From assembly GCF_030412015.1 (NCBI RefSeq), contig NZ_JASNRD010000010.1, positions 62,001 to 126,000 on the forward strand: 64,000 nt of DNA, given 5' to 3'. Below are positions 1,183 to 23,266 of the stretch, one piece after another. The notes under the pieces are model-generated. The model was not told the DNA's origin. It did no database searches and saw only the letters and a program-made list of their open reading frames with translations. Both the position numbers and the translations under genes were made by a program. Origin of the DNA: Massilia sp. YIM B02763 (GTDB lineage: Bacteria > Pseudomonadota > Gammaproteobacteria > Burkholderiales > Burkholderiaceae_D). How positions within the stretch are numbered: position 1 is the first letter of the stretch; every line of letters starts with the position of its first letter.

Positions 1183-1268
1183 GACGTTCTCCTTGAATGG
1201 TTGAAAATACCTCTTCAAAACGTCCCTATGGATAGTGCGGGGGTGGTCATGGCCACCCCGCTTCGTGA

Positions 1269-6019: not shown

Positions 6020-6101
6020 AGCTGCAGGCGTTCTGTCGGCGCTGCGGGCAGAACGCTCCACACCCATACCTCGACCCAACCAAAGAATCAGGAATAAAAA
6101 C

Positions 6102-6467
6102 ATGCCCATCAAACACATTTTGGCCCTGGCCACCTTCGCTTTCGCAAGTACCGTAACTTCGGTCGCATTCGCACACGCCAAGTTGCAATCATCGGATCCC
6201 CAAGCCGGCAGCACGCTCGGAGATGCACCGAAGCAGGTGCGCCTCAAGTTCAACGAGGCGCTCGAGCCTGCGTTCAGCAAAATCAAAGTGATGGGACCCC
6301 AAAATAACGAAATCCCGGTCACCGCGACCACCGTCGACAAGGCGGATCCTACCGTCATGACGGCGCCGCTACCACCGCTGTCCTCGGGCGAGTATCACAT
6401 CCAGTGGTCGACGATGACCCACGACGGCCATAAGGCAAAGGGCGAAGTCACGTTCAAGGTCAAGTGA
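6102..6467 (+). CDS. copC: Periplasmic copper-binding protein CopC
   Basis: CopC/YobA family protein, 121 residues. The signal peptide ends VAFA, which exposes an N-terminal His (HAKLQSSDPQAG) as in CopC, where the free amino-terminal His is a Cu(II) ligand. The C-terminal part holds the DGHK motif whose Asp and His complete that site. The fold-typical stretch VRLKFNEALEPAFSKIKV is present. CopC hands copper to the membrane protein CopD. The copC stop overlaps the copD start by 4 bases (ATGA), which supports the pairing and translational coupling. Confidence 0.93.
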   Translation: MPIKHILALATFAFASTVTSVAFAHAKLQSSDPQAGSTLGDAPKQVRLKFNEALEPAFSKIKVMGPQNNEIPVTATTVDKADPTVMTAPLPPLSSGEYHIQWSTMTHDGHKAKGEVTFKVK

Positions 6468-7405: not shown

Positions 7406-7484
7406 GACGTTCCAGCTGAGTGATAGTTGATTTGACGCTGGCAGCCGACCATATCCGTCGGCGCCAGCACTTAGGAGAAGGATT

Positions 7485-7928
7485 ATGTTAATCGGAAAAT
7501 TCAGAAATCTCGCGGTCGCTGCCCTGATCGGGCTGCCGACGCTCGCCAGCGCCGCAACCCAGGCCGTCGAGGTCTACAAGACCGCAACCTGCGGCTGCTG
7601 TGAAGAATGGGCCAAGCACCTGCGGGCCAACGGATTCAAGGTCAATGCGCACGATGTCGCCAATCCATCCGACACCCGCGAGAAAATGGGCATTCCCAAT
7701 CGGCTCGGCTCATGCCACACGGCAGTTGTCGGCGGTTATGCGATCGAAGGGCATGTGCCAGCCGCTGAGATCAAGCGGCTGCTTGCTGCGAAGCCGAAAG
7801 CGAAAGGGCTGGCCGTGCCGGCCATGCCGCCTGGCTCTCCTGGAATGGAGGGCCCAACGCGCATGCCGTACGACGTGCTACTGGTCCGCAACGACGGCAG
7901 TACGACGGTCTACAAGCACTACGACTGA
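7485..7928 (+). CDS. DUF411 family metal-binding exported protein
   Basis: A 147-residue protein with a signal peptide (MLIGKFRNLAVAALIGL, ending ASAA) and a DUF411 domain. The defining Cys motif KTATCGCCEEWAKHL (from about residue 30) and the second motif SCHTAVVGGYAIEGHVPA are both intact. DUF411 proteins have a thioredoxin-like outline and recur in copper resistance loci, where a metal-binding or delivery role is assumed but not well established. The C-terminus (MPYDVLLVRNDGSTTVYKHY) is also typical. The gene converges with the copper ATPase gene, 18 bp apart. Confidence 0.9.
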   Translation: MLIGKFRNLAVAALIGLPTLASAATQAVEVYKTATCGCCEEWAKHLRANGFKVNAHDVANPSDTREKMGIPNRLGSCHTAVVGGYAIEGHVPAAEIKRLLAAKPKAKGLAVPAMPPGSPGMEGPTRMPYDVLLVRNDGSTTVYKHYD

Positions 7929-7946
7929 GCGATCGGGCGCCTGCAG

Positions 7947-10319
7947 TTACTTCGCCGTGCCCCGCAGGCGCAGCGCGTTGGTGATCACGGATACCGAGCT
8001 CAGACTCATCGCCAACGCCGCGATCATCGGTGACAGCAGGCGGCCGGTGAACGGATAAAGCACGCCTGCTGCCAAAGGAATCCCGAGCGCGTTGTAGAAA
8101 AAAGCGAAGGCCAGATTCTGCCGCATGTTGCGCACGGTCTCCAGCGACAGCAGGCGCGCCCGCGCGATACCGCGCAGGTCGCCCTTGACCAAGGTGACGT
8201 GGGCCGAGTTGATGGCGACATCCGTTCCGGTACCCATCGCGATACCGACATTGGCCTTGGCCAGTGCGGGGGAGTCGTTGATGCCATCCCCTGCCATCGC
8301 AACCGTTTTCCCCTGCGCCTGCAGCCTTTCCACCAGTGCCAGCTTGTCCTGCGGCTTGACCTCGCCGTAGACTTCCGGGATGCCAAGCTTGGCCGCAACC
8401 GACCTGGCGGTCGTGACACCGTCGCCGGTCGCCATGACGACCGTGATGCCAGCCTCCTTGAGCGTTGCCAGCGCTTCCGGCGTGGTCTGCTTGACCGGGT
8501 CGGATACCGCCACCAGCCCTAGGAGCTGCCGATCGGCCGCCAGGTACATGACGCTTGCACCTTCCTGGCGCCAGCTTTCCGCCTGGGCCGTGAGTGGCTT
8601 CCAGTCGACCTTTTCGATGTCCATAAGCGCGGTATTTCCGAGGGCAATGCGCTTGCCCTCGACAACTCCACGCACGCCGATGCCGCTGGACGATTCGAAG
8701 GACTCCGGCTTGGCCAGGCCCAGCCCGCGGCTTAGCGCCTCGGCCACAATCGCATGGGCCAGCGGGTGTTCGCTGCCCTGGTCGATGCTGGCAGCGATCC
8801 GCAACACCTCCTGTTCGTCCCCGCCCGGGATCGCAGCGGCCGAATGGAACGCCGGCTTGCCTTCGGTGAGTGTCCCCGTCTTATCGACGATGAGGGTATC
8901 GATCTTGCGCATGCTCTCGATGGCCGCCGCATCGCGGAACAGGATGCCCTGCGTGGCGCCGCGGCCGGTAGCGGCCATGATGGACATTGGCGTCGCCAGC
9001 CCGAGCGCGCACGGGCAGGCAATAATCAGCACCGAGACGGCATTTACGAAGCCGTACACCCAGCTCGGCTCCGGACCGAAAAGCCCCCACCCGAGCAGCG
9101 TCAGCAAGGCTATGGTCACGACAATCGTCACGAAGTAGCCGGCCACCACGTCGGCCAGGCTCTGCATGGGCGCGCGCGAACGCTGTGCCTGGGCGACCAT
9201 CTGGACGATTTGCGACAGCATGGTCTCCGAGCCCACTTTTTCCGAGCGCACGACCAGACTGCCGCTGGCATTGATGGTTGCACCGATTACCTTGTCGCCC
9301 GGGCGCTTGGTTACGGGCACAGGCTCGCCGGTCAGCATGGACTCGTCGACCGCGCTTTCGCCCTCCAGGACAGTGCCGTCGACCGGCACCTTTTCGCCTG
9401 GCCGCACACGGAGCGCATCGCCGACGTGTACATGAGTCAAAGGAATGTCTTCTTCCGTGCCATCGGCGTTGATGCGGCGCGCCGTTTTCGGCGCCAGGCC
9501 CAGCAGGGATTTGATTGCTGCCGAGGTCTGCGAGCGTGCGCGCAGCTCCAGGATCTGTCCCAGTAGAGTCAGCGAAATGATGGCCGCGGCCGCCTCATAG
9601 TACACACCGATGCGTCCATGCATGGCAAAGGTTTGCGGAAATAGTCCGGGCGCGACGGTTGCGACTACGCTGTAGCAGTACGCTGCTGCGACGCCGAGCC
9701 CAATCAGCGTCCACATGTTGGGGCTGCGATTGCTGATGGACTGCACCCCGCGTGTAAAGAACGGCCATCCGGCCCACAGCACGACCGGTGTGCTCAGCAC
9801 GAGTTCGATCCAGCTTTGCCCGGGCAAGCCTCCTGTGAAGAACCGGTGCCCCGCCATCGCAAGGACGGTCACAATGACCGTCAGCGGCAGGGTCCACCAG
9901 AAACGGCGCTTGAAGTCCACTAGTTCCGGATTTTCTTCCTCTTCCAAGGACGGGAGCATGGGCTCGAGCGTCATGCCGCAAATCGGGCAGTTGCCAGGCT
10001 GCGGCTGCTGGATTTCAGGATGCATCGGGCAGGTATAGATCGTGCCTTCCGGCGCGGCGGGCGCCGGTTCATTGGCAGCGAGGCCTATATACTGCTGGGG
10101 CGACACCCGGAACTTGTCCATGCACCTGGCGCTGCAGAAATGATAAGTTTGCCCCTCGTGCCGAATTTCCCTGGCGGGGTCGGCGCCGACTTTCATTCCG
10201 CAGACCGGGTCAGTGAATGGCTTATCCCCAGTTCCGCTCTCATGGCGCACTCCGTGCCCAGGGCCATGCTCATGATGATGTTCGTGGCCGTCGTGATCGT
10301 GATGCGGCTGGTCGTTCAT
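7947..10319 (-). CDS. copA: Copper-exporting P1B-type ATPase CopA
   Basis: Inner membrane Cu(I)-translocating ATPase, 790 residues. A His-rich N-terminus ([18 protein letters not shown]) leads to a YHS domain (DPVCGMKV, then [10 protein letters not shown], residues 37-75) and a heavy-metal binding domain ([12 protein letters not shown], then [11 protein letters not shown], about 94-121) in place of classical N-terminal HMA domains. The catalytic core is complete: TGEPVPV, the membrane metal site CPC in [11 protein letters not shown] (about 436), the phosphorylated Asp in [11 protein letters not shown] (about 477), SEHPLAHAI and [13 protein letters not shown] (about 676). It follows copZ by 53 bp and should be read from the CueR-type promoter there. 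This gene is distinct from the multicopper oxidase, which is also named copA. Confidence 0.96.
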
Positions 10320-10372
10320 ATCGGAACCTTTCCTGGACTCGTTATTGCAAGTTCACATTGGGTACATCCGGC

Positions 10373-10579
10373 TCAGTCAGCCGCTACCTGAGTAGCCGGA
10401 TAGCCGGCAGCGGTAATCGCGGCGGCGACTGCATCCGGTGCTCTCGCGCTTTCCACACGGACGAGCTTGTCTTTCAACAGCACCTCGACTTTTGCATCCG
10501 GATCCAAGGTCTGCACGGTCCGGGTAACCCGGCTGGCGCAGCCGCCGCAGGACATCTTTTCTACCTTAAGCGTGTACAT
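10373..10579 (-). CDS. copZ: Copper chaperone, HMA domain (CopZ)
   Basis: A 68-residue single heavy-metal-associated domain. The Cu(I) motif is MSCGGCASRV (residues 9-18), giving the CxxC pair, and the beta-alpha-beta-beta-alpha-beta outline is intact (YTLKVEKM at the start, AAGYPATQVAAD at the end). CopZ-type chaperones buffer cytosolic Cu(I) and deliver it to the CopA ATPase, which is encoded immediately downstream. The ATG at 10579 has AGGAGG upstream. The promoter at 10611-10641 has the MerR-family layout. Confidence 0.95.
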   Translation of the reverse strand: MYTLKVEKMSCGGCASRVTRTVQTLDPDAKVEVLLKDKLVRVESARAPDAVAAAITAAGYPATQVAAD

Positions 10580-10610
10580 TGCTTTCCTCCTGTCTGATTG
10601 CTCCGATTAC

Positions 10611-10641
10611 AATGTAGACCTTCCCATGATAGGAAGGTCAA
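10611..10641 (-). promoter_or_regulatory. CueR/MerR-type operator-promoter of copZ-copA
   Basis: A perfect 8-base inverted repeat, GACCTTCC and GGAAGGTC with a 7-base spacer (10617-10639), lies between a -35 TTGACC (10636-10641, read on the minus strand) and a -10 TACATT (10611-10616). The -35 to -10 spacer is 19 bases, the overlong spacing that is the hallmark of MerR-family promoters, and ACCTTCC/GGAAGGT is the CueR-class operator sequence. The copZ start is 32 bases past the -10. Induction by Cu(I) through a CueR is inferred; no cueR gene is in this window. Confidence 0.9.
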
Positions 10642-10956
10642 GCTCTATCTGTGGTGATTTCACCGCGTAGACATATGATAATTGCCAGTGCCCAAAGAGA
10701 CCGCTTAACTCGTATTTCCAAGAAGCGGCAGGCCATAAGGGACAGCGAAGGTAATCAGGGCCGGAGCAATCACGATTCAGAAAAAGAACTTGTAGATTGT
10801 CTGCGCTTGGGCCACACCTACGCCACTCAATTCGTCTACACGCTCTGAGACGAGCCTGAATAGACGCGTTACCCGAACCGAAAGAGTTAAATACTCGCCA
10901 TTTAAGGTCGGTATAATTGACAACAAAATGTGGCGGTCCTAGACTACATCCTGACC
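10642..10956. promoter_or_regulatory. Intergenic region with a TATAAT promoter for the next gene
   Basis: 315 bp between the copZ operator and the next plus-strand gene. A consensus TATAAT lies at 10912-10917, about 40 bases before the ATG at 10957, but its -35 is poor. A 65-codon open frame from a GTG at 10651 has no ribosome binding site or recognisable features and was not called. Nothing else was identified. Confidence 0.45.
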
Positions 10957-11361
10957 ATGAGACTTCCTCGCACATCCCGACTGATTGCCGCAACAATACT
11001 GCTGTTTAGCATATTGTTCATGCAGCTCGCTGTGTCGGCCTATGCGTGCCCAGCTCTGAACTTGGGAAATGACGATCAGTTGACCTCGTCCGTGCATGCG
11101 AAGCCAGCCGACATGGTCGCATGCCAGGACATGGATATGGAACAGCCCAGCCTGTGCCATGCGTCCCACCAGACAGACAAGCAATCGCTCGACAAGCCGG
11201 CGACGCCACCGTTGGCGCCTTTCGTGGCGGTAGGGTACGGGCTTCCGATAAGCCTGAACACATTGACGTACCAGCGGCCTCTCGGCTGGCCTGCTCCCGC
11301 CTTCCTCACCTATGCGACGGCACCGCCCATAGCCATTCGCAACTGCTGTTTCCGCATTTGA
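10957..11361 (+). CDS. Small exported Cys/Met-containing protein upstream of cusCBA (unknown)
   Basis: A 134-residue protein with a signal peptide (LIAATILLFSILFMQLAVSA, cleavage before YACPAL). The mature part holds scattered Cys, Met and His (ACQDMDMEQPSLCHASHQ) and ends with a Cys pair near the C-terminus (RNCCFRI). I do not recognise a named domain. Its position directly ahead of the RND efflux genes and its Met/Cys/His content suggest a periplasmic metal-related accessory protein, by inference only. It resembles the two Cys/His-rich proteins at 4.5-5.5 kb in general plan but not in sequence motifs. Confidence 0.6.
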   Translation: MRLPRTSRLIAATILLFSILFMQLAVSAYACPALNLGNDDQLTSSVHAKPADMVACQDMDMEQPSLCHASHQTDKQSLDKPATPPLAPFVAVGYGLPISLNTLTYQRPLGWPAPAFLTYATAPPIAIRNCCFRI

Positions 11362-11435
11362 TCCTTCAGTTTGCATGATTCCTCATCGCTGCGCTTTTGC
11401 GCGGGCGGTGTTACTCAATGCATTCTGGAGGTTTG

Positions 11436-12752
11436 ATGTTTTCCCCACATATCATGGCGTCGCAAATGACGCCTTGTTCGACTGTTCGGTCTTCCCGGGC
11501 TGTCCTTCTTCTTGTATTTGCTGTCTCGCTTGTCCTTGGCAATCCTACGTTTGCCGCTGAAACGCCATTGACGCTGGCTGAAGCCCAGCAGCGGGCCATC
11601 GAGCGATCGCGAATGCTGGCGGCAAAAGACTACGCTGTCCAGTCCTCACGGGAGATGTCGGTCGCTGCCGGTCAGCTCCCAGATCCAGTCCTGAAGGTCG
11701 GTATCGATAACCTGCCGATCAATGGACAAGATCGCTTCAGCTTGACGCGTGACTTCATGACGATGCGACGGGTCGGTGTCATGCAAGAGCTGACGCGTTC
11801 CGACAAACGTCGCCTGCGTGCCGAACGGTTTGAACGCGAAGCGGAAAAGTCGATTGCGGAGAAAGCGGCCACGGCCGCGACAATCGAACGCGAGACCGCT
11901 TTGGCCTGGCTGGACCGTTACTACGCCGAAGCCATGTCGGCCGCAGTAGCCGAACAGATAGATCAGGCGAAGCTGGAAATCCAGGCGGCCGAGTCCGCGT
12001 ATCGGGCCGGCCGCGGCAACCAGGCCGACATCTTCAGTTCGCGCAGCGCACTTGCGGCCCTGGAGGACAAGGCTAGCGATATCGACCGCCGCATCGGCAA
12101 CGCTAAAATCGCACTGGCTCGGTGGATCGGTGACGCGGCGCAGCAGCCGTTGGGCGCCAAACCGGCGGTCGATACCATCCGCCTCAACGAGGCCACACTC
12201 GACACCCAGCTTAACCACCACCCAGAACTTGCCGTGCTGGCCAGGCAGGAAGACATCGCAGTCGCAGAAGCGCAACTTGCAAGAGCCAACAAGAAAGCGG
12301 ACTGGAGCGTCGAGGTCGCAGTGCAACAACGCGGCCCAGGGTATTCGGACATGGTGTCAATCGGCCTTTCGGTGCCCCTGCAGTGGGACCAGAAAAACCG
12401 CCAGGATCGCGAACTGTCTTCCAAGCTGGCTCAGGTCGAACGGGCGAGGGCCGAGCGCGAAGATATGTTGCGTGCCCATGTCGCCGAAGTGCGTGCCATG
12501 TTGAACGAGTGGCATACGGACAGGCAGCGACAAACCCGGTATGAGAAAGAACTGACCCCTCTGGCCAACTCCAGAACAACCGCGATCGTTGCCGCCTACC
12601 GGGGCGGAAAAGCCACGCTGGCGGACGTCATCGCCGCTCGTCGCAGTGAAATCGAAGTGCGCCTGCAGGCATTACAACTCGAGCAGGAAACCGACCGCTT
12701 GTGGGCGCAATTGAATTTTCTCTTTCCGCAAAACGGCGGTCCCGGCCACTGA
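11436..12752 (+). CDS. cusC: Outer membrane efflux protein, CusC/CzcC type
   Basis: TolC-family outer membrane channel, 438 residues. A long N-terminal signal region (hydrophobic VLLLVFAVSLVLGN, ending TFAA) precedes two outer-membrane-efflux repeats. Typical stretches are LTLAEAQQRAIERSRML at the start of the first helix and SAYRAGRGNQADIFSSRSAL in the first repeat. The paired motif in the second repeat is AAYRGGKATLADVIAARR. It forms the outer membrane exit duct of the tripartite RND pump with the adaptor and pump genes that follow. The start at 11436 has GGAGG four bases upstream. The next gene begins 26 bp downstream. Confidence 0.9.
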   Translation: MFSPHIMASQMTPCSTVRSSRAVLLLVFAVSLVLGNPTFAAETPLTLAEAQQRAIERSRMLAAKDYAVQSSREMSVAAGQLPDPVLKVGIDNLPINGQDRFSLTRDFMTMRRVGVMQELTRSDKRRLRAERFEREAEKSIAEKAATAATIERETALAWLDRYYAEAMSAAVAEQIDQAKLEIQAAESAYRAGRGNQADIFSSRSALAALEDKASDIDRRIGNAKIALARWIGDAAQQPLGAKPAVDTIRLNEATLDTQLNHHPELAVLARQEDIAVAEAQLARANKKADWSVEVAVQQRGPGYSDMVSIGLSVPLQWDQKNRQDRELSSKLAQVERARAEREDMLRAHVAEVRAMLNEWHTDRQRQTRYEKELTPLANSRTTAIVAAYRGGKATLADVIAARRSEIEVRLQALQLEQETDRLWAQLNFLFPQNGGPGH

Positions 12753-12778
12753 AAAGCCGGGCGAACAAGGATGTTTAT

Positions 12779-14338
12779 ATGGATACTAAAAAAATAACAA
12801 TTGCTCTGCTCGTGGCTGCTGCATTGGGCGCTGGTGGGTATGGCGTGTACAAGCTCGGCATGAATCAAGGGATGGGGATGTCAACCGTTCCACAAACGGC
12901 GTCCTCCGCCCAAGGGGCAGGTGTGAATCAAACCAATGGACGCAAGGTGCTTTACTGGCACGACCCGATGGTCCCGGGCCAGAAATTCGACAAGCCGGGC
13001 AAGTCACCGTTCATGGACATGGAACTGGTGCCCGTGTATGCGGATGAGGCTGGCGACGAAGGCAAGATCAGCATCAGTCCTCGCGTTGAACAGAACTTGG
13101 GTGTTCGTACCGCCGAAGTCACGAAAGCCAGGTTTGCCGCCAATGTGGAAGCTGTTGGCAGCGTCGCGTACAACGAGCGTGACGTCGCCGTGGTACAGGC
13201 GCGTAGCAACGGCTATGTCGAGCGGCTTTTCGTGCGTGCAGCGCTTGACCCGGTAAAGAAAGGCCAGCCGCTGGCCGCACTGTATGTACCCGACTGGGTA
13301 GCAGCACAGGAGGAATACCTCACCGCAATGAAAATGAACGGTCCCGGGACGGACGGACTGGCGGAAGGGGCGCGACAGCGTATGCGCCTGGCGGGCATGA
13401 CGGATGCGCAGATCCGTAGCGTCGAGTCCAGCGGCAAGGTGCAGCCCCGTTTGACCGTCAGCTCGCCGATCAATGGCGTGATCGGAGAACTGACAGTCCG
13501 TGAAGGGATGACGATCGCATCGGGCGCACCTATGTTCCGGATCAATGGACTCAGCACGGTCTGGGTCAACGCCGAGCTTCCTGAAGCCGCATCGGCCGAG
13601 GTGCGCCCAGGCACACTGGTGGAAGCCCGTACCCCTGCCCTGCCGGGCACAGTATTGAAGGGCAAGGTCAGCGCGATCCTGCCTGAAGTCGAGGCGGCAA
13701 CGCGCACATTGAAAGCGCGGGTCGAGCTGGCCAATCCCGGACAGCGACTGGTGCCGGGCATGTTTGCCACCGTGAACTTTACGCCCGCGGCGAGCGCGGA
13801 AACCTTGACGGTGCCGACGGAAGCAGTCATCCAGACCGGTAAGCGCAGTGTCGTGATGCTTGAACAGGGTCAAGGCAAATTCATGCCCGTCGATGTCCAG
13901 ATCGGCCGCGAGAGCAACGGCCAGACCGAAATCCTCAAAGGTCTCGACGTCGGGCAAAAAGTTGTTGTTTCAGGCCAGTTCCTGATCGATTCCGAAGCCA
14001 GCCTGCGAGGCACCACGAACCGGCTGAGCGGTCCTGCGCCGGCGGGAGACTCCAAGCCAAGCGCAGGGCCAACGACACATCGTGCGCATGGCAAGGTGGA
14101 GAACATCAACAAGGATGAAATCACGTTTTCGCACGATCCGATCCCGAGCATGCAGTGGCCGGCGATGACAATGGGGTTCAAGGTCCCGGCAGGAGGTGTA
14201 CCGAAAGATCTGGCGGTCGGCGACATGATGAACTTCGAATTCCAGCAGACCAAGGACGGAGCGTTCCAGATCACCAGCATGTCCCCTGCCGGCCCGTCGA
14301 TGCAGGGCATGAGCGGAATGGGAGACTCCAGGAAATGA
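12779..14338 (+). CDS. cusB: RND efflux periplasmic adaptor CusB with HMBD and C-terminal CusF-like domain
   Basis: Membrane fusion protein, 519 residues. After an N-terminal signal-anchor ([19 protein letters not shown]) comes a heavy-metal binding domain ([18 protein letters not shown] then [10 protein letters not shown], residues about 58-86). The usual adaptor follows: barrel-sandwich ([20 protein letters not shown]), helical hairpin, beta-barrel and membrane-proximal domain. The last ~85 residues are a fused CusF-like domain ([18 protein letters not shown] then [12 protein letters not shown]) with the Trp and two Met of the CusF metal site. This fusion could let the adaptor load Cu(I)/Ag(I) to the pump without a free chaperone. 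The stop overlaps the cusA start by 4 bases. Confidence 0.93.
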
Positions 14339-17300
14339 TCGCCAAACTCATTCGCTGGTCGATCCTCAATCGCTTCCTGGTCCTGCTTGCGACACTCGGC
14401 ATCACGGCCTGGGGCATCTATGCGCTGCAACGTACGCCTCTGGATGCGCTGCCCGACCTGTCCGACGTGCAGGTGATCATCCGCACATCCTATCCCGGCC
14501 AGGCGCCACAAATTGTCGAGAATCAGGTGACTTATCCGCTGACGACGACAATGCTGTCGGTACCCGGCGCGAAAACGGTGCGCGGCTATTCTTTCTTTGG
14601 CGACTCCTTCGTCTACATCCTGTTCGAGGACGGCACCGACCCCTACTGGGCACGCTCGCGCGTACTGGAATATTTGAACCAGGTTCAGTCGCGCCTGCCG
14701 CCACAGGCAAAGACAGCGCTCGGGCCGGATGCCAGTGGCGTTGGCTGGGTGTACGAGTATGCCCTAGTCGACCGTAGCGGCAAGATGGACCTGTCGCAGC
14801 TGCGCGCGTTCCAGGACTGGTTCCTCAAGTACGAGCTCAAGACGGTACCCAATGTGTCGGAAGTCGCAAGCCTGGGCGGCATGGTTCGTCAATACCAGAT
14901 CGTCCTCGATCCTGACAAGCTGCGGGCCTACAACATCGCGCATAACGTGATCATCGACGCCGTGCAAAAGGCCAACCAGGAGGCCGGTGGCTCCGTGCTC
15001 GAGCTGGGCGAAGCCGAATACATGGTGCGTGCGAGCGGTTATCTGCAATCGCTCGACGATTTTCGCAAGATCCCACTGATGACCTCCCAGGCTGGTGTTC
15101 CCGTCCTGCTCGGAGACGTCGCGCGAATCCAGCTGGGACCGGAAATGCGGCGCGGCATCTCCGAGCTGAACGGCGAAGGCGAAGTGGCGGGTGGCGTGAT
15201 CGTTATGCGCTCAGGGAAGAATGCACTGGAAACCATCGACGCGGTGAAAGCCAAACTGGCGTCTCTCAAGTCGAGTTTGCCTCCGGGCGTGGAGATCGTT
15301 CCGACCTATGACCGCTCGAACCTCATCCAGCGCGCTGTCGACAACCTCAGGGATAAGTTGGTGGAGGAGTTCATCGTTGTTGCGGTGGTGTGCGCAATCT
15401 TCCTGTTCCATCTGCGCTCCGCGCTGGTCGCGATCGTGACATTACCGATCGGTATTCTGACCGCCTTCATCATCATGCATTACCAGGGGGTGAACGCGAA
15501 CATCATGTCGCTCGGCGGTATTGCGATCGCGGTAGGCGCCATGGTGGACGCCGCCGTCGTCATGATCGAGAACGCACACAAGCATATCGAAGCGTGGAAT
15601 CACAAGCATCCCGGCGCAAAACTCGACGGAGAAGCGCGCTGGCGGGTCATTGGGGACGCCGCCGCCGAAGTCGGTCCGGCACTGTTCTTTTCGCTGTTGA
15701 TCATTGTGCTGTCGTTCATTCCGGTGTTTACGTTGGAAGCGCAGGAAGGACGGCTGTTCTCACCGCTTGCCTTCACGAAGACGTATTCGATGGCAGCCGC
15801 CGCGGGGCTGGCCGTGACCTTGATCCCGGTGCTGATGGGTTACCTGATCCGCGGACGGATTCCCGACGAACAGAAGAATCCGCTGAATCGCTTCCTGATC
15901 GTCCTGTACCGGCCGTTACTGGATGGCGTGCTGCGCTTTCCCAAGTCGACCCTGGTCGTCGCCGCCATGATTGCCGCCATCACCGTCTGGCCGATGACCC
16001 GGCTCGGCGGCGAATTCATGCCGCCTCTCGACGAAGGCGACCTTCTTTACATGCCGTCGGCGCTACCAGGGCTTTCGGTTGGCAAGGTGTCGCAGTTGTT
16101 GCAACAAACGGACCGCCTGATCAAGACGGTACCGGAAGTGCAAAGCGTCTTCGGCAAGGCGGGACGGGCCGAGACGGCGACCGACCCTGCTCCACTGGAG
16201 ATGTTCGAGACCACGATCCAGTTCAAGCCAAAGGATCAATGGCGGCCGGGAATGACACCGGATAAGCTGGTGGAAGAACTGGACCGCGTGGTCAAGGTGC
16301 CTGGGCTTTCCAACATCTGGGTCCCACCGATCCGCAACCGCATCGACATGCTGGCCACCGGAATCAAGAGTCCGGTCGGGGTCAAGGTGGCCGGTACCAG
16401 TCTGCAGGAGATCGACCGCGTTGCTGGCGAAATCGAACGGATCGTCAAGACGGTGCCCGGCGTTTCATCGGCACTTGCCGAACGTCTCAACGGTGGACGT
16501 TATATTGACGTCAATATCAATCGTGACCAGGCAGCGCGCTACGGCTTGAATATCGCCGATGTGCAGAGTGTCGTGTCGGCGGCAATCGGCGGCGACAACA
16601 TCGGCGAGACCGTCGAAGGCCTGCAGCGATTCCCGATCAATGTCCGCTATCCACGCGAAGTCAGGGATTCAGTCGAGAACCTCCGCCAGTTGCCGGTCCT
16701 GACGCCGCGCGGCGCACAGATTCGCCTGGGAGATGTAGCGACGGTCCGCATCAATGACGGCCCGCCCATGCTCAGGAGCGAAAATGCACGGCTGTCTGGC
16801 TGGGTGTACGTCGACATCCGCGGGCGTGACATGAGCTCGGTGGTGCGGGACATGCAGCAGGCTGTCGCCAAGCAGGTCAAGCTGCAGCCTGGCTATTCGA
16901 TTTCGTGGTCCGGTCAGTTCGAATACCTGGAACGCGCCAGCGCGAAGCTCAAGGTTGTCGTACCGGCGACGCTGCTGGTGATCTTTGTCCTTCTCTACCT
17001 GACATTCAAGCGCTTTGACGAAGCCATCCTGATCATGGCCACCCTGCCGTTCGCACTGGCAGGCGGCGTCTGGCTGCTCTGGATGCTCGGCCATCACCTG
17101 TCTGTCGCCAGCGCGGTCGGCTTCATTGCCCTTGCCGGCGTCGCGGCCGAGTTCGGGGTGATCATGCTGCTCTACCTGAAGCAGGCCTGGGAGGCTCACG
17201 TCACTGTCGGAAAGTCATCCGAGGCCGATTTGTTGGACGCCATTCGGGAAGGGGCGGTACAGCGCGTCCGGCCAAAAGCCATGACTGTGGCGGTGATCAT

Positions 17301-17511
17301 TGCAGGCCTTGTTCCGATCATGATCGCGTCCGGCACCGGCTCGGAAATCATGCAACGTATTGCTGCGCCGATGGTCGGCGGCATGTTGTCCGCGCCATTG
17401 CTGTCCATGTTTGTGGTTCCGGTTGTGTACCTGTTGATGCGCCGCCGGGAGTTACGAAAAGAGAACGCGCGAAGACCCGCCCACCAGGAGGCCAACTATG
17501 AAACTACATGA
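14335..17511 (+). CDS. cusA: Heavy-metal RND efflux pump CusA
   Basis: Inner membrane RND transporter of the heavy-metal efflux (HME) class, 1058 residues, the usual size. It exports Cu(I)/Ag(I) from periplasm or cytosol through the CusB-CusC conduit using proton flow. The HME signature in TM4, [20 protein letters not shown], supplies the conserved Asp of the proton relay. The N-terminus ([19 protein letters not shown]), the motif [19 protein letters not shown] in the first periplasmic half and the terminal helices are all intact. The start at 14335 forms an ATGA overlap with cusB; an open frame extends further upstream into cusB but has no start signal. Copper/silver specificity is inferred from the neighbourhood. 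Confidence 0.95.
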
Positions 17512-17633
17512 GCTTACCTCTGCACGGTGTCTCAAGGTCCGGCTCGTTTAGCAGGCCAGAGCGTAGACGGTTAAAACTTGCTGCAGGCAGGTTTGGTCGA
17601 GTTCAGTTTTCGCAGTCGTTGAAGGAGTCAATC

Positions 17634-17891
17634 ATGAAAAAATTTCTTGTCACCCTACTCAGCGTGATGTCATTCGCTACCGCTTTGCCGGCGTTCGCCG
17701 GTCCTGATTGGCAAATCATCGAGCACGGACGCAAGGTCAAGGCGGAGCGCATGCGACAGGAACAAGCTCAGCGCACCCAAGATGAGCAACAGAAAACCTT
17801 GCAATTGCCGGGTAACCAAACCGACAAGGAACAGATGATAAAGGCGTGCATGGAAATGATGAACAAGTCAAAGCAGCAGGCTGATCATTAA
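17634..17891 (+). CDS. Small exported charged Gln/Met-rich protein (unknown)
   Basis: An 85-residue protein with a signal peptide (KKFLVTLLSVMSFATALPAF, cleavage before AGPDWQ). The mature part is highly charged and helical with many Gln and Lys (ERMRQEQAQRTQDEQQKTLQ) and ends with a Met/Lys segment (MIKACMEMMNKSKQQADH). I recognise no domain. The ATG at 17634 has a strong GAAGGAG. It lies between cusA (122 bp upstream) and cusF (89 bp downstream) in the same direction, so a periplasmic accessory role in metal efflux is plausible by context only. Confidence 0.65.
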   Translation: MKKFLVTLLSVMSFATALPAFAGPDWQIIEHGRKVKAERMRQEQAQRTQDEQQKTLQLPGNQTDKEQMIKACMEMMNKSKQQADH

Positions 17892-17980
17892 TGAACCCGT
17901 ATCGGCAATCTTAGCCACAACAACTTGGCGTCCCGTCGCGGACTCAAGACTTTACTTTTATTCACTTGAGGAGAATTCTC

Positions 17981-18430
17981 ATGAAACGTTTTGCCCAACT
18001 GGCCTTTATTTCTGCACTGACCATTTCCGGAACCGCCTTCGGCCAGACAGGCGACATGAAGGGCATGGAAATGAAAAAGGGTTGCATGGACATGAAGGAT
18101 ATGAAAGGCATGGACATGAACAATATGAAAGGCATGAATATGGAGGGATGTAAGGAGATGATGAAGGAGAACACTGCCGACAGCAAAGTCCAAGGTACCT
18201 CCAAGGAAGGCACAGTACACAAGACGTCAGCCGTGGTGAAATCGGTAGATCCGGCCAACGGCAAGGTGACACTTGCCCATGACCAGGTAAAGACCCTGAA
18301 CTGGCCGGCAATGACGATGACTTTCGGCGTCAAGGACAAGTCTTTGCTCGACAAGCTCGCAGTCGGAAAGAAAGTGGACGTTGAGTTCACGCAGCAAGGA
18401 TCGAACTACGTCGTTTCAGCAGTTAAATAA
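17981..18430 (+). CDS. cusF: Periplasmic Cu(I)/Ag(I) chaperone CusF with Met-rich N-terminal extension
   Basis: A 149-residue exported protein. A signal peptide (MKRFAQLAFISALTISGTAF) is followed by about 45 residues rich in Met, Lys and Asp with three Cys (MKGMEMKKGCMDMKDMKGM). The C-terminal CusF domain has TSAVVKSVDPANGKVTLAHD and the complete metal site region LNWPAMTMTFGV, with the Trp, Met and Met of E. coli CusF; the matching His is in LAHDQ. CusF passes metal to CusB. Here the Met-rich extension probably adds binding capacity. The start at 17981 follows GAGGAG. This is the last intact gene of the copper cluster. Confidence 0.92.
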   Translation: MKRFAQLAFISALTISGTAFGQTGDMKGMEMKKGCMDMKDMKGMDMNNMKGMNMEGCKEMMKENTADSKVQGTSKEGTVHKTSAVVKSVDPANGKVTLAHDQVKTLNWPAMTMTFGVKDKSLLDKLAVGKKVDVEFTQQGSNYVVSAVK

Positions 18431-18457
18431 GCGGAATACGGGTCTTCAGCTCGGGTT

Positions 18458-19455
18458 CTATTCGTCAGCACAGTGACAATCCGGGTAGCCGCGACGGTAG
18501 ATCCGCCATCGCCGCTGTGCTGATTCTAATTGCTCGCGAGTTTTAGCTAATAACGCCCCGGAACCCGTAGCGTAGATAATTGCGTTCGTGAAGCGCTCGC
18601 CGAACATGATGGCGAATTGGTTTGCAACCTGCTTCCAGGTGCGCTGCGGCATCTTCCAATTTTTCTCGATGTTGCGCAAGGCCAGAAATAACAATTTGGT
18701 CGCGGCCTCGTCGCTCGGGAAGTGACCGCGGTTCTTGACGATCTTGCGAAGGGGCATATGCAGGCTCTCGATGGCGTTGGTCGTGTAGATAATCGTGCGC
18801 ACTTCCGGCGGGTAGGCAAAGAAGGGAATCACCTGCTACCATTGAAGTCGCCACATCGCGGCTACAGTCGGGAATTTGGTGTCCCATGGTCCGGCTGCAA
18901 ACGCATCCAGCGCCGCTTCGGCCAGCTCGGCGTTGGCGGCGTGGTAAATCGGCTTGAGCACCGCTGCCAGTTCCTTACGGTCCTTCCAGGCCGCTAGCGT
19001 GGTCGAGTTGCGGATCAGGTGCACGATGCACGTCTGGATCTGCGCCTGTGGATACACGGCCTTGATGGGCTCCGGGAAGCCGCGCAGGCCATCGACGACG
19101 GCGATCAGGACATCGTCCAGGCCACGGTTCTTGAGTTCGTTAAAAACCCTCAGCCAGAACTTGGCGCCTTCGGTCTGTTCGATCCACAGTCCCAGCACCT
19201 CCTTACGGCCATCGGCACGAATGCCCAAGGCCAGATACACGGCCTTGTTTTTGACGCTGCCTTCATCCCGGATTTTCAGGCGCAGAGCATCGAAATACAC
19301 GATCGGATACATCGTTTCAAGCGGCCTTTGCTGCCATTGCGTGACCTCTTCGAGCACCTCGTCGGTGATAGTCGAAATCAGGTCCGGCGACACCTCAGTG
19401 CCGTACAGTTCCAGCAAATGCGCCTGAATCTCGCACACGCTCATTCCACGGGACC
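18458..19455 (-). pseudogene. IS256-family transposase, truncated and interrupted by a stop codon
   Basis: Remnant of a mutator/IS256-type transposase (normally about 400 residues). Homology begins near RGMSVCEIQAHLLELYGTE (about 19455), so the first ~100 residues are missing, and runs to FAIMFGERF near the natural end. The catalytic DDE residues are visible in IVYFDALRLKI, AVVDGLRGFPEPI and TTNAIESLH. Within one reading frame, W-TAG-QVIPFFAYPP at 18836-18838 replaces the usual W-Gln-Gln, a single CAG to TAG change. The tail after GERFTN does not look like transposase, so the 3' end may also be rearranged. The element is inactive unless complemented. No terminal inverted repeats were found. 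Confidence 0.85.
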
Positions 19456-19952
19456 TTGACATTGGTGCCAATTTGCTGGGACGGTGGTGCAGAGACGCCA
19501 ACGTGGAAGGCCCTGCCAAGAATCCGTTGGGGCTATAACCAGATGACGCCGGTCCGCGGGCCAACCCTCGATGTCATCGTCCAGTGCTAGCCAGCGCTCG
19601 CCCCCCCCCGTTCTTCGGCATCGCCGGTAATGGCGTCATGTCTCCGCTGCGGGGGGAACCGCAGCATCGAACCCTGCCAGATTGTCCCTACTACTCGCGC
19701 GCGCAGCGCCGGTGGCAGCTGCTGCACAGCAAATTCGTAGCCCAGTATTCGCACCCAACTAGTCGCTAGCGATATACGAACCTCTGGAAATGCCTCCAAA
19801 ATACATGCTAAAAGTGGTGCATTCTCGAAGAGAAGGCGATCCGTCGGCCGCCCATTTTGATATATCCGCGGCCGTAACGGCTCAGCCTTAGTAATGCGTA
19901 CATCAGATGGGTGCAGAACGCCATCATAATCGAGATAGAGTATAGGGCCCAT
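19441..19952 (-). pseudogene. HAD-like protein (HAD_SAK_2-like) frameshifted at a run of nine C
   Basis: The N-terminal 110 residues (MGPILYLDYDGVLHPSDV, then RISLATSWVRILG) look like the small HAD phosphatase domain known from bacterial RNA-repair and related proteins; DYDG provides the nucleophile. At 19601-19609 a run of nine C shifts the frame to a quick stop. Reading on in the shifted frame gives ERWLALDDDIEGWPADRRHL, the expected DDD motif and C-terminal part, then a stop at 19441. One extra base, or two fewer, in the run would restore about 170 residues, the usual length. It is either a slippage-switchable gene, a decayed gene or a sequencing error. The last ~20 codons may come from the adjoining IS remnant. 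Confidence 0.6.
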
Positions 19953-20273
19953 ACAAAATAATCTACGCCTGCGAGAGCGAAAACGCGTACAACTCTCTAC
20001 AGCATATTAAACTCCGGCCTTGATTTCGTTTAGACCCACTAAACCATAAGTTCAAATCCAGTTATCGCCAGCGGCTTGCCGCGACGATTACCGTGCTGCC
20101 GGAGCGTGTGGACTTCAAGGGACATTGCGGCCAAAGCGTCAGTGTTCTGCTGCGCTCACGATAATGGACGAGCGTAGACTGGTTCACGCTATCCCAATCC
20201 ATTAAAAACGCCAGCATAAGCGTCCTCGATTGTCGTCAATAAATTGATGGTAACGGCCGAGAGTACATATACG
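19953..20273. other. Gene-free AT-richer stretch
   Basis: About 320 bp without a supported gene, between the broken HAD gene and the MbcA-like gene. No ribosome-binding-site-led frame, tRNA, long repeat or clear promoter pair was seen. Its lower GC than the chromosome on the right suits the decayed end of a mobile island. Confidence 0.4.
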
Positions 20274-20561
20274 CTAAGTGTACACGCAGTATTCCAATCT
20301 CAACAAATGCTCTCTTACCAACTGTACCTCACCAGCCTGCACTAAATCAGCTGGCCGCATTCCGTTGAAGGCGAGCGCTGGCTTGGTAAACCAGTCCCAA
20401 GCGGCTGAATAGTCATTTCCAAACACGCGAAAAACATAGGGCGAGATGGCATTCCATATCTTTAGATTCCCGCCGAAAATTACATAAGTTTTTCGTACGT
20501 TATAACGGATGGCGCGGTTAAGATGAAAATACCGCCGCTTCTTACGATTTCTTGCATTCAT
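20274..20561 (-). CDS. MbcA/ParS/Xre-type toxin-binding domain protein (orphan)
   Basis: A 95-residue basic protein. The C-terminal half (NAISPYVFRVFGNDYSAAWD, then the FTKPALAFNGMRPADLVQ region) matches the DUF2384 domain found at the C-terminus of Xre/MbcA antitoxins. Conserved points are VFG, the W..P..A..G..P.DL core and the terminal LLRLEYCVYT helix. The N-terminal ~40 residues are Arg/Lys-rich and lack a clear HTH. No RES-domain toxin is adjacent, unlike the complete pair at 53.6-54.7 kb. It starts 53 bp after the stop of the 124-residue gene upstream, so the two probably form an operon. The start at 20561 is the best ATG, though its ribosome binding site is weak. Confidence 0.6.
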   Translation of the reverse strand: MNARNRKKRRYFHLNRAIRYNVRKTYVIFGGNLKIWNAISPYVFRVFGNDYSAAWDWFTKPALAFNGMRPADLVQAGEVQLVREHLLRLEYCVYT

Positions 20562-20614
20562 ACTCTGGAACCTGACTGCTATTGCGAAACAGTTGAATAC
20601 CGGCAGGCGGGGTA

Positions 20615-20989
20615 CTATACGGACGCCGACATGGGAACTGACCAATTTAGGATATCTCCCATGCGCCGAACAATCCACTTTGCTTCGCTCAATGTCATCC
20701 AAGATTTACTCAATATGTCCAAGTACCATTGGAGCATCTCGGATTCGGTCCGACGCGTCAACTTGTCGGCCTTATCTCGCTTGGCTTCAGAAGCGAGGTC
20801 TTGCGCAATCTCTTCACAGCCTATCCAACGCTCATACACCTCAGGAGGCGTAGACCCCGCAGGGTAGAACGTACCTTTGTACTGCACTACAAGGATTTTC
20901 AGCTGAGTACCCGGAACCGCGCCGGTCGAGACGCCACGAGGAAAATCTGACGGAACTTTCGCGTACTCGCTTTCGTCATATTCGGTCAT
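20615..20989 (-). CDS. Small protein of unknown function paired with an MbcA-like gene
   Basis: A 124-residue soluble acidic/basic mixed protein (begins MTEYDESEYAKVPSDF). Visible features are a short beta-rich N-terminal part (LKILVVQYKGTFYPAGSTPP) followed by helices with VYERWIGCEEIAQDLASEA and a Trp-rich C-terminal part (WMTLSEAKWIVRRMGDILNW). I recall similar small proteins beside DUF2384 genes in mobile islands but cannot name the family. The MbcA-like gene follows in the same direction. A toxin-antitoxin or regulator pair is a possibility, not shown. Confidence 0.55.
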   Translation of the reverse strand: MTEYDESEYAKVPSDFPRGVSTGAVPGTQLKILVVQYKGTFYPAGSTPPEVYERWIGCEEIAQDLASEAKRDKADKLTRRTESEMLQWYLDILSKSWMTLSEAKWIVRRMGDILNWSVPMSASV

Positions 20990-21239
20990 AGCACGATCCC
21001 ATTTTCACGTTTGACAAACACTCCGACTGCTGGGGATAGGAGCGGAAATGTAAAACGATCTTTCTACCGCATCTACCTTCGCCTCAAACCGCGAAGCTTA
21101 CGAGCCTAAGAACAATAAAAAAACCATAAGTACCCATGCGAAACCACGGGTCTCCGTCATTTAGAGCGACCTCCATGCCACACAACTTTAGTTTAATAGC
21201 ATGCACATTTACGCTTGCACAACTTAAATGCTGACGTCC
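20990..21239. other. AT-rich intergenic region
   Basis: About 250 bp upstream of the minus-strand pair at 20.3-21.0 kb and downstream of the gene ending at 21240. It should hold a promoter for that pair; no convincing boxes or terminator stem were recognised. Confidence 0.35.
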
Positions 21240-21770
21240 TTAGAAACCCGGGTCAAATTCCTTTGCCTCCGACCAAACACAGCGCGGAGCAACGATATCT
21301 TCCCCACTTACCTCAAGGAAATCATCTTTCTCGACTGACCCGTCGGCCGCTACAAAAATTCGCGCAAACCCGCCTTCGGCTACGGCCCCTTCCAAAATCT
21401 TAACAATTCGCTTTAACTGGAAATTTCCTCTACCATCTCGCCGCGTTTGAACATGAATCCGAAAATCAGAAATTTTCTCGCAAAGACAGAAATCAAAAAT
21501 GTCCTCAACCTTATCGAATATGAAGCGCTGCTGCGGACCATACCCCCCCACAGGGGAAATATCTAAATGAAATATTTGCGAATTCAGAGGCACTTCAAAA
21601 AACCGATATCTGCGTAAGCCCGGCTGTTGAAACATCTGGCGTATCACTTCTAAACGATCGCTGTCTTCCCAGTTGTCGTAAGCATGGAACACTTGTAATA
21701 CCTTCCAATATAAGAGCCCGGCTGCGCATAGTGCGGCAAACCAGAGGAAGTACCGCTCACTGGTGCGCAA
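21240..21770 (-). CDS. Membrane-anchored protein of unknown function
   Basis: A 176-residue protein with one N-terminal hydrophobic segment (YFLWFAALCAAGLLYWKVL, residues 7-25), probably a signal anchor. A mixed alpha/beta soluble domain follows (QIFHLDISPVGGYGPQQRF, DIFDFCLCEKISDFRIHV, EGGFARIFVAADGSVEKDDF). No known domain is recognised. The only start in the open frame is a TTG at 21770, without a good ribosome binding site, and a stop lies ten codons upstream; the 5' end could therefore be decayed. It is divergent from the XRE regulator gene, and the 32-bp palindrome lies 27 bp upstream of its start. Confidence 0.45.
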   Translation of the reverse strand: MRTSERYFLWFAALCAAGLLYWKVLQVFHAYDNWEDSDRLEVIRQMFQQPGLRRYRFFEVPLNSQIFHLDISPVGGYGPQQRFIFDKVEDIFDFCLCEKISDFRIHVQTRRDGRGNFQLKRIVKILEGAVAEGGFARIFVAADGSVEKDDFLEVSGEDIVAPRCVWSEAKEFDPGF

Positions 21771-21796
21771 GCGCAGCGCTGTAGTAACGTTTGTAG

Positions 21797-21828
21797 ACTA
21801 TACACTACATTTAAATGTAGCGTATAGT
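21797..21828. promoter_or_regulatory. 32-bp palindromic operator between divergent genes
   Basis: The two arms, ACTATACACTACATTT and AAATGTAGCGTATAGT, are perfect reverse complements except for one pair (A versus G at position 8). The centre is TTTAAA. The site ends 30 bp before the ATG of the XRE-type regulator at 21859 and lies 27 bp from the start of the divergent gene at 21770. A symmetric site of this length fits two or more dimers of an HTH protein, so autoregulation by the neighbouring XRE protein is a reasonable inference. Confidence 0.7.
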
Positions 21829-21858
21829 ACATCGTAAGAACCGTGGTCCGCGGGCATC

Positions 21859-22200
21859 ATGCCAGCCATGACCTCGACACCCGAAAAAAATACCGAACAC
21901 AGGGATCCGGTGTGCACGGCTGTTGGCAGGACGTTGAAGCGTCTACGAATCTCCTCAAAAATGAGTCAAGAGGGTCTTGCGTTCGCAGCGGAGGTCGACC
22001 GAGTTTTTGTCTCCAAGATTGAGCGTGGGATTGCGAACCCATCTCTTTTGACACTAACTAGTTTATGTTTAGCGCTCGGCGTGACACTTCCGGATCTTCT
22101 CAAGGACGTAGATCTCTCATCAGTCTCGCGCAATGGACAGCGCCGACGGGCGAACTCAGCACAGCCTGTTCTAAAAGTGCAAAAGGGACGTTTGCGGTAA
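21859..22200 (+). CDS. XRE-family helix-turn-helix transcriptional regulator
   Basis: A 113-residue protein with a Cro/C1-type HTH domain at about residues 21-80. Features include VGRTLKRLRISSKMSQEGLA (helices 1-2), AEVDRVFVSKIERGIANPSL (recognition helix and wing) and TSLCLALGVTLPDLL. The C-terminal 30 residues are basic and unstructured (QRRRANSAQPVLKVQKGRLR). The size resembles island or phage repressors and restriction-modification controller proteins, but no restriction or methylase gene adjoins it. A start at ATG 21859 or at the second ATG (21868) is possible. The 32-bp palindrome upstream is the likely operator. Confidence 0.85.
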   Translation: MPAMTSTPEKNTEHRDPVCTAVGRTLKRLRISSKMSQEGLAFAAEVDRVFVSKIERGIANPSLLTLTSLCLALGVTLPDLLKDVDLSSVSRNGQRRRANSAQPVLKVQKGRLR

Positions 22201-22255
22201 TAGGCGCACCTGTTGATGGCTTACCATTATGTGTTCAGCAAGAAAATTCGCACTT

Positions 22256-22386
22256 ACCGGCTGTGGATATGTTGGGCGAGCACCCGCCCAACACCGTGGG
22301 GATAAGCTGTGCACGGGGGTGCACAACATGAACCCGTTGTACACGCCCCGCACACAGCTTACCCCCACTTACCCACAGCGGCCGGT
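22256..22386. repeat. Large dyad structure with DnaA-box-like 9-mers near the island end
   Basis: The core, 22296-22368, is an imperfect palindrome: arms of 32 and 33 bases agree at 28 positions (GTGGGGATAAGCTGTG against GTGGGGGTAAGCTGTG in the outer half) around an 8-base loop. Outside it, CCGGCTGTGGATA (22258-22270) is mirrored by TTACCCACAGCGGCCGG (22369-22386, two-base insertion). A 9-base stem, TGTTGGGCG/CGCCCAACA, lies at 22270-22293. Four 9-mers are one or two mismatches from the DnaA box TTATCCACA: 22262-22270, 22297-22305, 22359-22367 and 22369-22377. It could be a replication origin, a recombinase-binding end or a strong hairpin; function is not shown. Confidence 0.6.
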
Positions 22387-22456
22387 TGGACCTCATGCAG
22401 CTAGAGCGACCATTATCATTGAGAGAGATAGTTTGTCCAAGACCAAAGAGCAGCCT

Positions 22457-22768
22457 ATGAGTACAGAATCTCTGAGTTCTGACAATGTGACCAAACCGTT
22501 CAACATCGCCTCGTACGCGCTGCTGACGCACATGATGGCCCAGCAGGCCGGCCTGGAAGTGGGCGACTTCATCTGGACCGGCGGCGACTGCCACCTGTAC
22601 TCGAACCACCTGGAACAGGTGCAGCTGCAGTTGTCGCGCGAAGAGCGCCCGTTGCCCAAGCTGGTCATCAAGCGCAAGCCGGATTCGCTGTTCGACTACA
22701 CCTTCGACGACTTCGAGGTCGTCGGCTACGACCCGCACCCGGCCATCAAGGCACCGGTCGCCGTCTGA
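22457..22768 (+). pseudogene. thyA: 3' remnant of thymidylate synthase gene thyA fused to island sequence
   Basis: From residue 14 on, this 103-codon frame is the C-terminal ~90 residues of ThyA. It starts at [20 protein letters not shown], includes the nucleotide-binding stretch [12 protein letters not shown], and ends with [14 protein letters not shown], the invariant end of the family. The first ~175 residues are missing, including the Arg loop and the catalytic Cys in the PCH motif, so it cannot be an enzyme. The 13 codons ahead ([13 protein letters not shown]) and everything upstream are AT-richer island sequence, which places the junction at about 22,496. folA follows after 9 bp as in intact thyA-folA operons. 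A complete thyA may exist at the island's other end. Confidence 0.88.
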
Positions 22769-22777
22769 GGAGCGCAC

Positions 22778-23266
22778 ATGAGCAAGCACTTGACCATCGT
22801 CGTCGCCATGGATGCACGGCGCGGCATCGGCATCGACAACAAGCTGCCCTGGCACCTGCCGGAAGACCTGGCGCACTTCAAGCGCGTCACGCTCGGCCAT
22901 CCGATCGTCATGGGCCGCAAGACCTTCGACTCGATCGGCCGTCCGCTGCCGGGGCGGCGCAATATCGTCGTCACGCGCAACGCCGACTGGCGCCATGAAG
23001 GCGTCGAGGTCGCGCACTCGCTGCGGGATGCCGTGGCGCTGGCCGGCGGCGAATCGGCGAGCATCATCGGCGGCGCCCAGATCTTCGCCGAAGCGCTGGA
23101 CCTGGCCGACCGCATGATCGTCACCCATATCGACAAGCAGTACGCGTGCGACACCTTCTTCCCCGAGATCGACCCGGCGCGCTGGACGGCCGTGGCGAGC
23201 GAGCCGCAGCGCTCGGAGGCCGAGGGCGTCGAGTTCTCCTTCGTCACCTACGACAAGGTCGGGTAG
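22778..23266 (+). CDS. folA: Dihydrofolate reductase
   Basis: DHFR, 162 residues, which reduces dihydrofolate to tetrahydrofolate with NADPH. Family motifs are intact: VVAMDARRGIGIDNKLPWHL (substrate loop with the Pro-Trp), HFKRVTLGHPIVMGRKTFDS (NADPH binding), GRPLPGRRNIVVTRN and ASIIGGAQIFAEAL. The terminal region RSEAEGVEFSFVTYDKV is also typical. It begins 9 bp after the thyA remnant, so its original promoter upstream of thyA has been replaced by island sequence. Expression must now come from the island end or from an internal promoter. Confidence 0.95.
   Translation: MSKHLTIVVAMDARRGIGIDNKLPWHLPEDLAHFKRVTLGHPIVMGRKTFDSIGRPLPGRRNIVVTRNADWRHEGVEVAHSLRDAVALAGGESASIIGGAQIFAEALDLADRMIVTHIDKQYACDTFFPEIDPARWTAVASEPQRSEAEGVEFSFVTYDKVG

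Follow-up and report, generated by a model that had tools for sequence, protein, structure and literature searches.

The usual expectation is that mobile elements keep out of essential genes or else repair them, and thyA, a gene required for making DNA building blocks, is essential when thyX is absent. The window (the whole stretch of 64,000 nucleotides analysed here, C2:62001-126000 of G000, the 5.9-Mb draft genome of Massilia sp. YIM B02763) holds the right-hand end of a large metal-resistance island which stops inside thyA. The locus raises the question of how an island came to lie within this gene and what supplies thymidylate synthase to the host. The reading that we favour, with a probability of roughly 0.85 and from assembled sequence, is that a site-specific mobile element has split thyA and has brought with it a substitute thyA which would take over from the host gene.

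The Split thyA Gene of the Host

A Pfam thymidylate synthase search of G000 gave matches in three places, all on one contig and one strand, namely a 5' piece of the host gene, an intact gene and a 3' remnant (Table 1). These three places confirm the initial annotation, which had recognized a thyA remnant from about 22,496 without the catalytic Cys and N-terminal part; its coordinate proved exact to the base, being the first base of a spacer (see below), and both of the missing parts are found in the 5' piece. The element between the two halves is 68,650 bp in length (C2:15846-84495), its left end lying 46 kb beyond the window (window coordinate -46154). Both thyA halves and the left junction on C2 bear out the proposal that an integrative element had recombined inside thyA, and the left junction and integrase genes sought upstream are both present where they had been predicted.

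Table 1. Features of the element, its junctions and the interrupted thyA locus; plain positions are those of the window, the others carry the name of their contig or locus.
Feature	Position	Strand	Description or basis
Element, right-hand part	1..22495	.	Junctions; ends nearly identical in two further Massilia genomes
Hairpin-forming block near right end	22256..22386	.	DNA fold z-score -7.19, 0/200 shuffles as good
Right terminal arm ATGTGACCAAA	22485..22495	+	Imperfect inverted repeat of left arm, 8/11 bases
Right spacer CCGTTC	22496..22501	.	6 bp, Pro-Phe codons of host thyA
Left terminal arm CTTTGCCACAT	L004:7846-7856		Partner of right arm, 8/11 bases
Host thyA 5' piece	C2:15321-15845		PF00303 positions 1-178, catalytic Cys included; 68.6 kb upstream of 3' remnant
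Host thyA 3' remnant	22502..22768, to stop	+	PF00303 174-266, E 4.2e-36 (match C2:84487-84765)
Open frame, 103 aa	22457..22768	+	Element-coded ATG start and thyA 3' remnant; translation
folA	22778..23266	+	ORF; host gene directly 3' of remnant, named by sequence and position
Carried intact thyA	C2:16061-16885		Profile positions 1-265
Gene A	142 bp after carried thyA		1009 aa; no Pfam/NCBIfam match above cut-off
Gene B	Second in module		827 aa; tyrosine-recombinase motifs
Gene C	Third in module		178 aa; weak coiled-coil-type matches
Gene D	Fourth in module		441 aa; Pfam phage-integrase family, E 9.9e-7

It had also been suggested that the element rebuilds the host gene from an element-borne copy of its displaced 3' end, the carrying of which is common among phages and islands. 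The left junction refutes this for the present element, since the left host piece remains truncated and is continued by a short tail of foreign sequence ending in a stop, while the intact gene is a separate one inside the element which differs throughout and has its own start; the probability of this model is close to nil.

The remnant does keep an open frame with an island-encoded start and folA does follow in its normal place, as the initial annotation had stated. Such an element-coded start and open frame occur in all four of the Massilia elements described below, and a folA homolog follows the remnant in the other three as well (after a gap of ~130 bases in G820). In G171, a genome of another family in the same order, the frame is also open, from an unrelated start with AAGGA before it, and is also followed by folA. 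In G551, from elsewhere in the class, the frame is blocked by a stop and folA is not the next gene. Where open, the remnant frame may keep the downstream folA translated.

Terminal Arms and Spacers

At the left junction the host gene (...CTGGGCGTG) is followed by the spacer CCATTT and the element arm CTTTGCCACAT, and at the right junction the element arm ATGTGACCAAA is followed by the spacer CCGTTC and host sequence (AACATCGCC). The 11-bp imperfect inverted arms directly abut the 6-bp spacer and thyA is interrupted at a Pro-Phe codon pair. A direct repeat at the junctions had been expected; by-eye comparison of the two gave the imperfect 6-bp spacer as the sole repeat.

The arms are identical in G781 (Massilia norwichensis) and G787 and nearly so in G820 (M. 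yuzhufengensis), with left/right spacers of CCATTT/CCCTTC, CCGTTC/CCGTTC and CCGTAT/CCCTTC, respectively. Among 30 native thyA genes of the genus, the six bases at the site were CCCTTC (15), CCGTTC (12), CCATTC (2) or CCTTTC (1), with CCATTT present in none of them. Judged against this survey, the right spacer is host-like in all four elements, and the left spacer, at the thyA/recombinase end, is non-host in three, both spacers of G787 being CCGTTC. The pattern fits a 6-bp footprint such as those of the elements known as SEs and of Tn554, but at the opposite end from that of SEs, and CCATTT was presumably derived from an earlier thyA host.

The right end of the element has a hairpin-forming block (Table 1) which is conserved in M. 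yuzhufengensis. DnaA-box-like 9-mers (one mismatch allowed) number 11 in the window against 4.1 expected, and three of these (22262, 22297 and 22369) lie inside the block, which could be a replication or recombinase site. A consensus promoter directed outward was found neither at the right end, where the one match points inward, nor at the end of the G171 element, and the stretch 20000-22490 of the window had no match among plasmids. Small genes at 20274-22200 encode an HTH regulator, an MbcA/ParS-like antitoxin and two proteins without assignment; by eye they resemble those near the module of an element in rtcB (L022), suggesting a common element backbone. No conjugation genes were recognized by eye in the list of element ORFs.

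Spread Among Massilia and Relatives

A thymidylate synthase match was present in 61 of 62 genomes of the genus, and in four of the 62 (G000, G781, G787 and G820) the gene is in two pieces accompanied by an intact extra copy. That the split is an artefact of assembly or deletion might be supposed given that most of these genomes are drafts and that both junctions lie mid-contig on a single contig in G000 only; the element ends are on separate contigs in G781 and G820, and in G787 the element would span the ends of one contig. Against this, four separate assemblies agree to the base on two identical junctions, for which reason an assembly artefact was rejected and this explanation as a whole is held to be highly improbable.

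The first 12 kb of the element in G781 and G787, and its last 6.5 kb (G781) or 2.5 kb (G787), are 99.9% identical to the element of the window, whereas the host thyA 5' pieces of G000, G781 and G787 share only 86.9-90.8% identity with one another, which indicates recent horizontal movement. The G820 element is a diverged relative, with identities of 84.5% for the carried ThyA, 51% for A, 54-57% for B, 49% for C and 66% for D. A pattern scan for D across 84,980 species genomes, which detects close relatives only, returned just M. norwichensis and M. yuzhufengensis. With B alone as the query, matches at an E-value of 0.001 came from 10 of 399 order genomes, and a B profile at 1e-5 matched 5 of 335, marking the module group as rare in the order.

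The Carried thyA as a Probable Replacement Gene

The carried thyA starts 209 bp inside the left end, lies in the orientation of the host gene and encodes an intact protein of 278 aa (thymidylate synthase, E 1e-114). It is diverged over its whole length, with ~62% amino-acid identity to a native Massilia ThyA. A search of nine genomes, among them G171, G128 (a genome of another family) and the four Massilia genomes with a split gene, detected no thyX, and the carried thyA is therefore the only intact thymidylate synthase gene detected in those genomes. The island accordingly interrupts a gene that is essential to its host. A scan found no consensus promoter before the carried thyA. The attachment sequence of the carried gene of G000 also differs (CCCGTTCAACTGTACG vs CC[G/C]TTCAA[C/T]ATCGC in the host), an alteration which may guard the carried thyA against insertion.

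In the trees, a single group (97/86), separate from the native ThyA of Burkholderiales, holds the carried ThyA proteins of Massilia, G171 and G128. It also includes ThyA from two genomes belonging to another gammaproteobacterial family (69-70% identity), with chromosomal neighbors that look ordinary by eye. Host pieces from G000, G171 and G551 are placed among the native genes. For the IMG/VR contig L155 (see below), the carried ThyA is sister to the host piece of the same contig, and G551 carries one of a different type. In the class ThyA tree, 6 of 29 class loci are without a ThyA row and the G128 host piece is left out.

Three genus genomes (G298, G797 and G785; L073, L071 and L072) possess the carried-type thyA only, in the normal locus behind threonine aldolase, with folA 3.6 and 5.7 kb further on in two of them and with no element-end motifs found at any of the three loci. 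These genomes may represent takeover at its final stage, or they may descend from the lineage that supplied the element with its gene. They also lend some weight to a different order of events, in which a host gained a second thyA by another route and the element later struck the redundant original. In the 99.9%-identical elements of three genomes, on the other hand, the carried gene always lies 209 bp inside the end, and none of the 62 genus genomes was noticed to combine an intact native thyA with a whole carried-type one, making prior gain very improbable. Separately, the only thyA match of G769 (L074:8885-9856) is a very divergent long form with ~37% identity to the native protein.

Recombination Genes

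Behind the carried thyA are four genes (A-B-C-D), of which D is the ordinary recombinase. The order A-B-C-D with the ordinary recombinase last is found in G000, G820, G128, G056, G389 and G255. Across six divergent elements, the ARR arginines, HxxR, later H and Y of protein B are kept without exception, and in D the R, HxxR and Y are kept in 6/6 and the GH in 5/6 (GQ in G389). A profile of D also matches the structures of XerH, XerA and XerD. Protein B gave a sub-threshold score against the Pfam integrase family (18.2 bits, cut-off 27.1), and its profile had no match among PDB sequences.

Searches with A alone yielded one weak plasmid record and, besides its own genome, one weak match among 369 genomes of the class, and structure prediction of A from six sequences was of low confidence (mean pLDDT 44, pTM 0.27). 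PADLOC returned nothing for A, B, D or four proteins from the right end. Gene A of G787 (L067:7857-10885) is present as two ORFs, though the left 12 kb is 99.9% identical to that of the window element. Another recombinase module of four genes, arranged in GInt-like order, occurs in G000 beside what appears by eye to be a comM-like fragment, in L023 (G000:C19:4001-24000), 6334-11270.

Other Elements Which Split thyA

The initial annotation had suggested that thyA as the choice of site may be new, but this island is not alone in it. Two further loci, G551 and L155, turn out to be cut at the same site or within a few codons of it, and two others, G171 and G128, elsewhere in the gene. In G171 thyA is cut near profile position 210 by an element of ~33 kb, in which an intact thyA lies 16 bp past a four-gene module of GInt-like order and is inverted relative to the host gene. 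In G128 the cut in thyA comes after profile position 96 and the genes run A-B-C-D-thyA with a gap of 10 bp; no right end was found for this element. In G551 the cut is at the Massilia site (L143:5584-7884 and L144:7965-8231), and a different thymidylate synthase of 307 aa lies behind a serine-resolvase gene, the contig ending before other recombination genes.

L155 (contig IMGVR_UViG_2585427853_000004) holds a distant relative of the Massilia element. Its thyA 5' piece ends near residue 176, and next come an intact thyA, then A and B, which are 26 and 31% identical to the Massilia proteins, and a C-like ORF (28%, E 0.003). After this come two ORFs and then, by eye, a putative start of D; the Massilia D protein had no match on the contig. 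L155 is filed as viral; carrying thyA, A, B and C, it looks like an integrated element and may be misclassified.

A split thyA with an intact copy was found in 4/62 genomes of the genus, 3/399 of the order (including G000) and one further genome among 369 of the class, the latter two counts being lower bounds because only 30 order and 19 class genomes were re-examined. The 30 comprised 26 with at least two matches and four with one, and a similar number with two matches, mostly of a divergent type, fell outside the re-examination; the 19 comprised 18 with at least two matches, and at least four with two were left out. G655, G714 and G663 have split-like thyA matches on short contigs.

Pairing of the Carried thyA With Its Target

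The recombinase modules retrieved were compared according to where they lie. An intact thyA is found beside the module in 5/5 modules located in thyA (G000, G820, L155, G128 and G171; G781 and G787 were excluded as near copies), and a thyA match near the module in 0/13 located elsewhere. The Fisher p-value of 1.2e-4 is nominal, since the loci share ancestry and thyA was sought only within the stretch retrieved for each locus, which for L021 was just 5.8 kb. The 13 modules consist of seven genome places from the B search (G109 and G365 left out) and six plasmid records, and their targets include rtcB once (Pfam) and comM-like genes three times (by eye), with one module next to umuDC (annotation). 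In a Providencia plasmid (NZ_CP145930.1, L156:3582-11663), an A-B-C-D module is flanked directly by umuD and a umuC gene, which follow it, and on the opposite side by a gene for a class A beta-lactamase.

In the B-protein tree, a clade supported at 100/100 unites G128 with the elements of rtcB, comM (two) and umuDC and with two plasmid elements, and leaves out the Massilia elements, which implies that thyA was captured at least twice. This tree has long branches, flagged as possibly false joins, and G171, L155, G000 and G820 are inseparable in it from the GInt-like rows. Having a different gene order and a different site, G171 probably represents a third capture. These sequences thus comprise three module types, three thyA sites and at least two separate captures.

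These data also bear on whether the carried thyA is chance cargo and the insertion in thyA a coincidence. Islands often carry housekeeping-like genes, and the modules are rare, so that the samples are small. Both the 5/5 vs 0/13 pairing and the position of the G128 B protein, which groups with proteins of elements at other targets and not with those of the Massilia elements, speak against chance; this reading was rejected on these two grounds and is considered improbable.

Proposed Mechanism and Significance

Returning to the replacement of thyA by the element, the following course of events is proposed. The recombinases would act on a 6-bp core within thyA, cutting it and inserting the element as a circular copy, with the spacer of the circle joined to the thyA core, and the host thyA would die. 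The carried thyA, ~0.2 kb downstream of the truncated host gene and transcribed probably from the host thyA promoter, would then take over thymidylate synthesis. The replacement gene would in this way render usable a target which is otherwise costly or lethal, and the cell would from then on depend upon the island. The evidence throughout is assembled sequence.

It is possible, though we would put the chance at somewhat below even, that this reflects a general strategy. Elements aimed at an essential gene would have to carry a diverged, functional substitute, altered at the attachment sequence so as not to be a target itself, which would make a lethal site safe and the island undeletable; thyA copies passed between unrelated elements would then form a mobile lineage able to replace the native gene. 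Elements with at least two, and probably three, separate recombinase lineages land in thyA and bring their own thyA, which would account both for islands inside an essential gene and for the one-step swap of a core gene for a foreign one. For annotators, a "broken" or duplicate thyA may be the flag of such an island.

Comparison With Known Systems

In a search of the open-access literature, with subscription papers outside its scope, no paper was found on a thyA-splitting island carrying its own thyA. The closest case is that of Pseudomonas putida KT2440, in which a 65-kb island splits tmk and a dNMP kinase takes over, as shown by genetics, and which the available text of the report describes as the first example of its kind (PMC10653934). 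Strains carrying the replacement kinase alone are also reported there. In both islands an essential gene of the thymidylate pathway is split and a foreign replacement lies at one end near tyrosine recombinase genes. They differ in that the tmk replacement comes from another enzyme family, whereas here thyA is replaced by thyA, and in that the shared genes of the tmk case are described as those for a TetR regulator, a pair of recombinases and an unknown protein, where the thyA island has A-B-C-D, a comparison made by description. With the thyA island beside it, the tmk case becomes a testable rule, in which a substitute is carried by elements in essential genes and not by those in dispensable ones.

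With GInts the island shares four adjacent recombination genes, site-specific insertion and variable cargo, going by the available description (PMC5385486). Of the four, GInts have three recombinase-like and one small, and in the island B and D carry recombinase motifs and C is small. The sequence comparison was made with loci of GInt-like order, the published reference GInts being known by description; in it B and D match their counterparts by profile comparison (E 8.7e-14 and 2.1e-18) and A gave no match (E 0.083). By this matching the GInt-like loci read D-A-B-C, with the ordinary recombinase first, whereas in the thyA island it is last. In the GInt order itself (ginA-B-C-D) the ordinary recombinase opens the series and the small gene closes it, which is likewise not the arrangement of the island. 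According to the available description, GInt insertion probably does not fully inactivate the target genes, unlike that of the thyA island (PMC5385486).

SEs and Tn554 were compared by description and not by sequence. Like SEs, as described in the accessible part of the report, the island has a system of four proteins that includes an ordinary and a large recombinase, split attB halves, imperfect inverted ends, a 6-bp spacer and a 6-bp footprint (PMC10214605). The SE order intA-tfp-intB-srap at the left end is replaced here by thyA, A, B, C and D, and the footprint spacer, which in SEs is far from the recombinase genes, is at the recombinase end. SEs are reported from a subset of Gammaproteobacteria (PMC10214605). 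Tn554 has recombinases, a small protein and a 6-bp footprint in common with the island (PMC10214605), but it consists of three genes without a counterpart of the fourth protein and occurs in different hosts. Replacement of the target gene, present in the thyA island, is not mentioned for SEs or GInts in the available parts of those sources.

The likeness to GInts and SEs is one of style, membership in neither family being established. By analogy, the thyA island is an element which works like the tmk island and uses GInt/SE-like recombination, and it belongs to a broad group with several tyrosine recombinases and a small coiled-coil protein, in which GInts and SEs are included.
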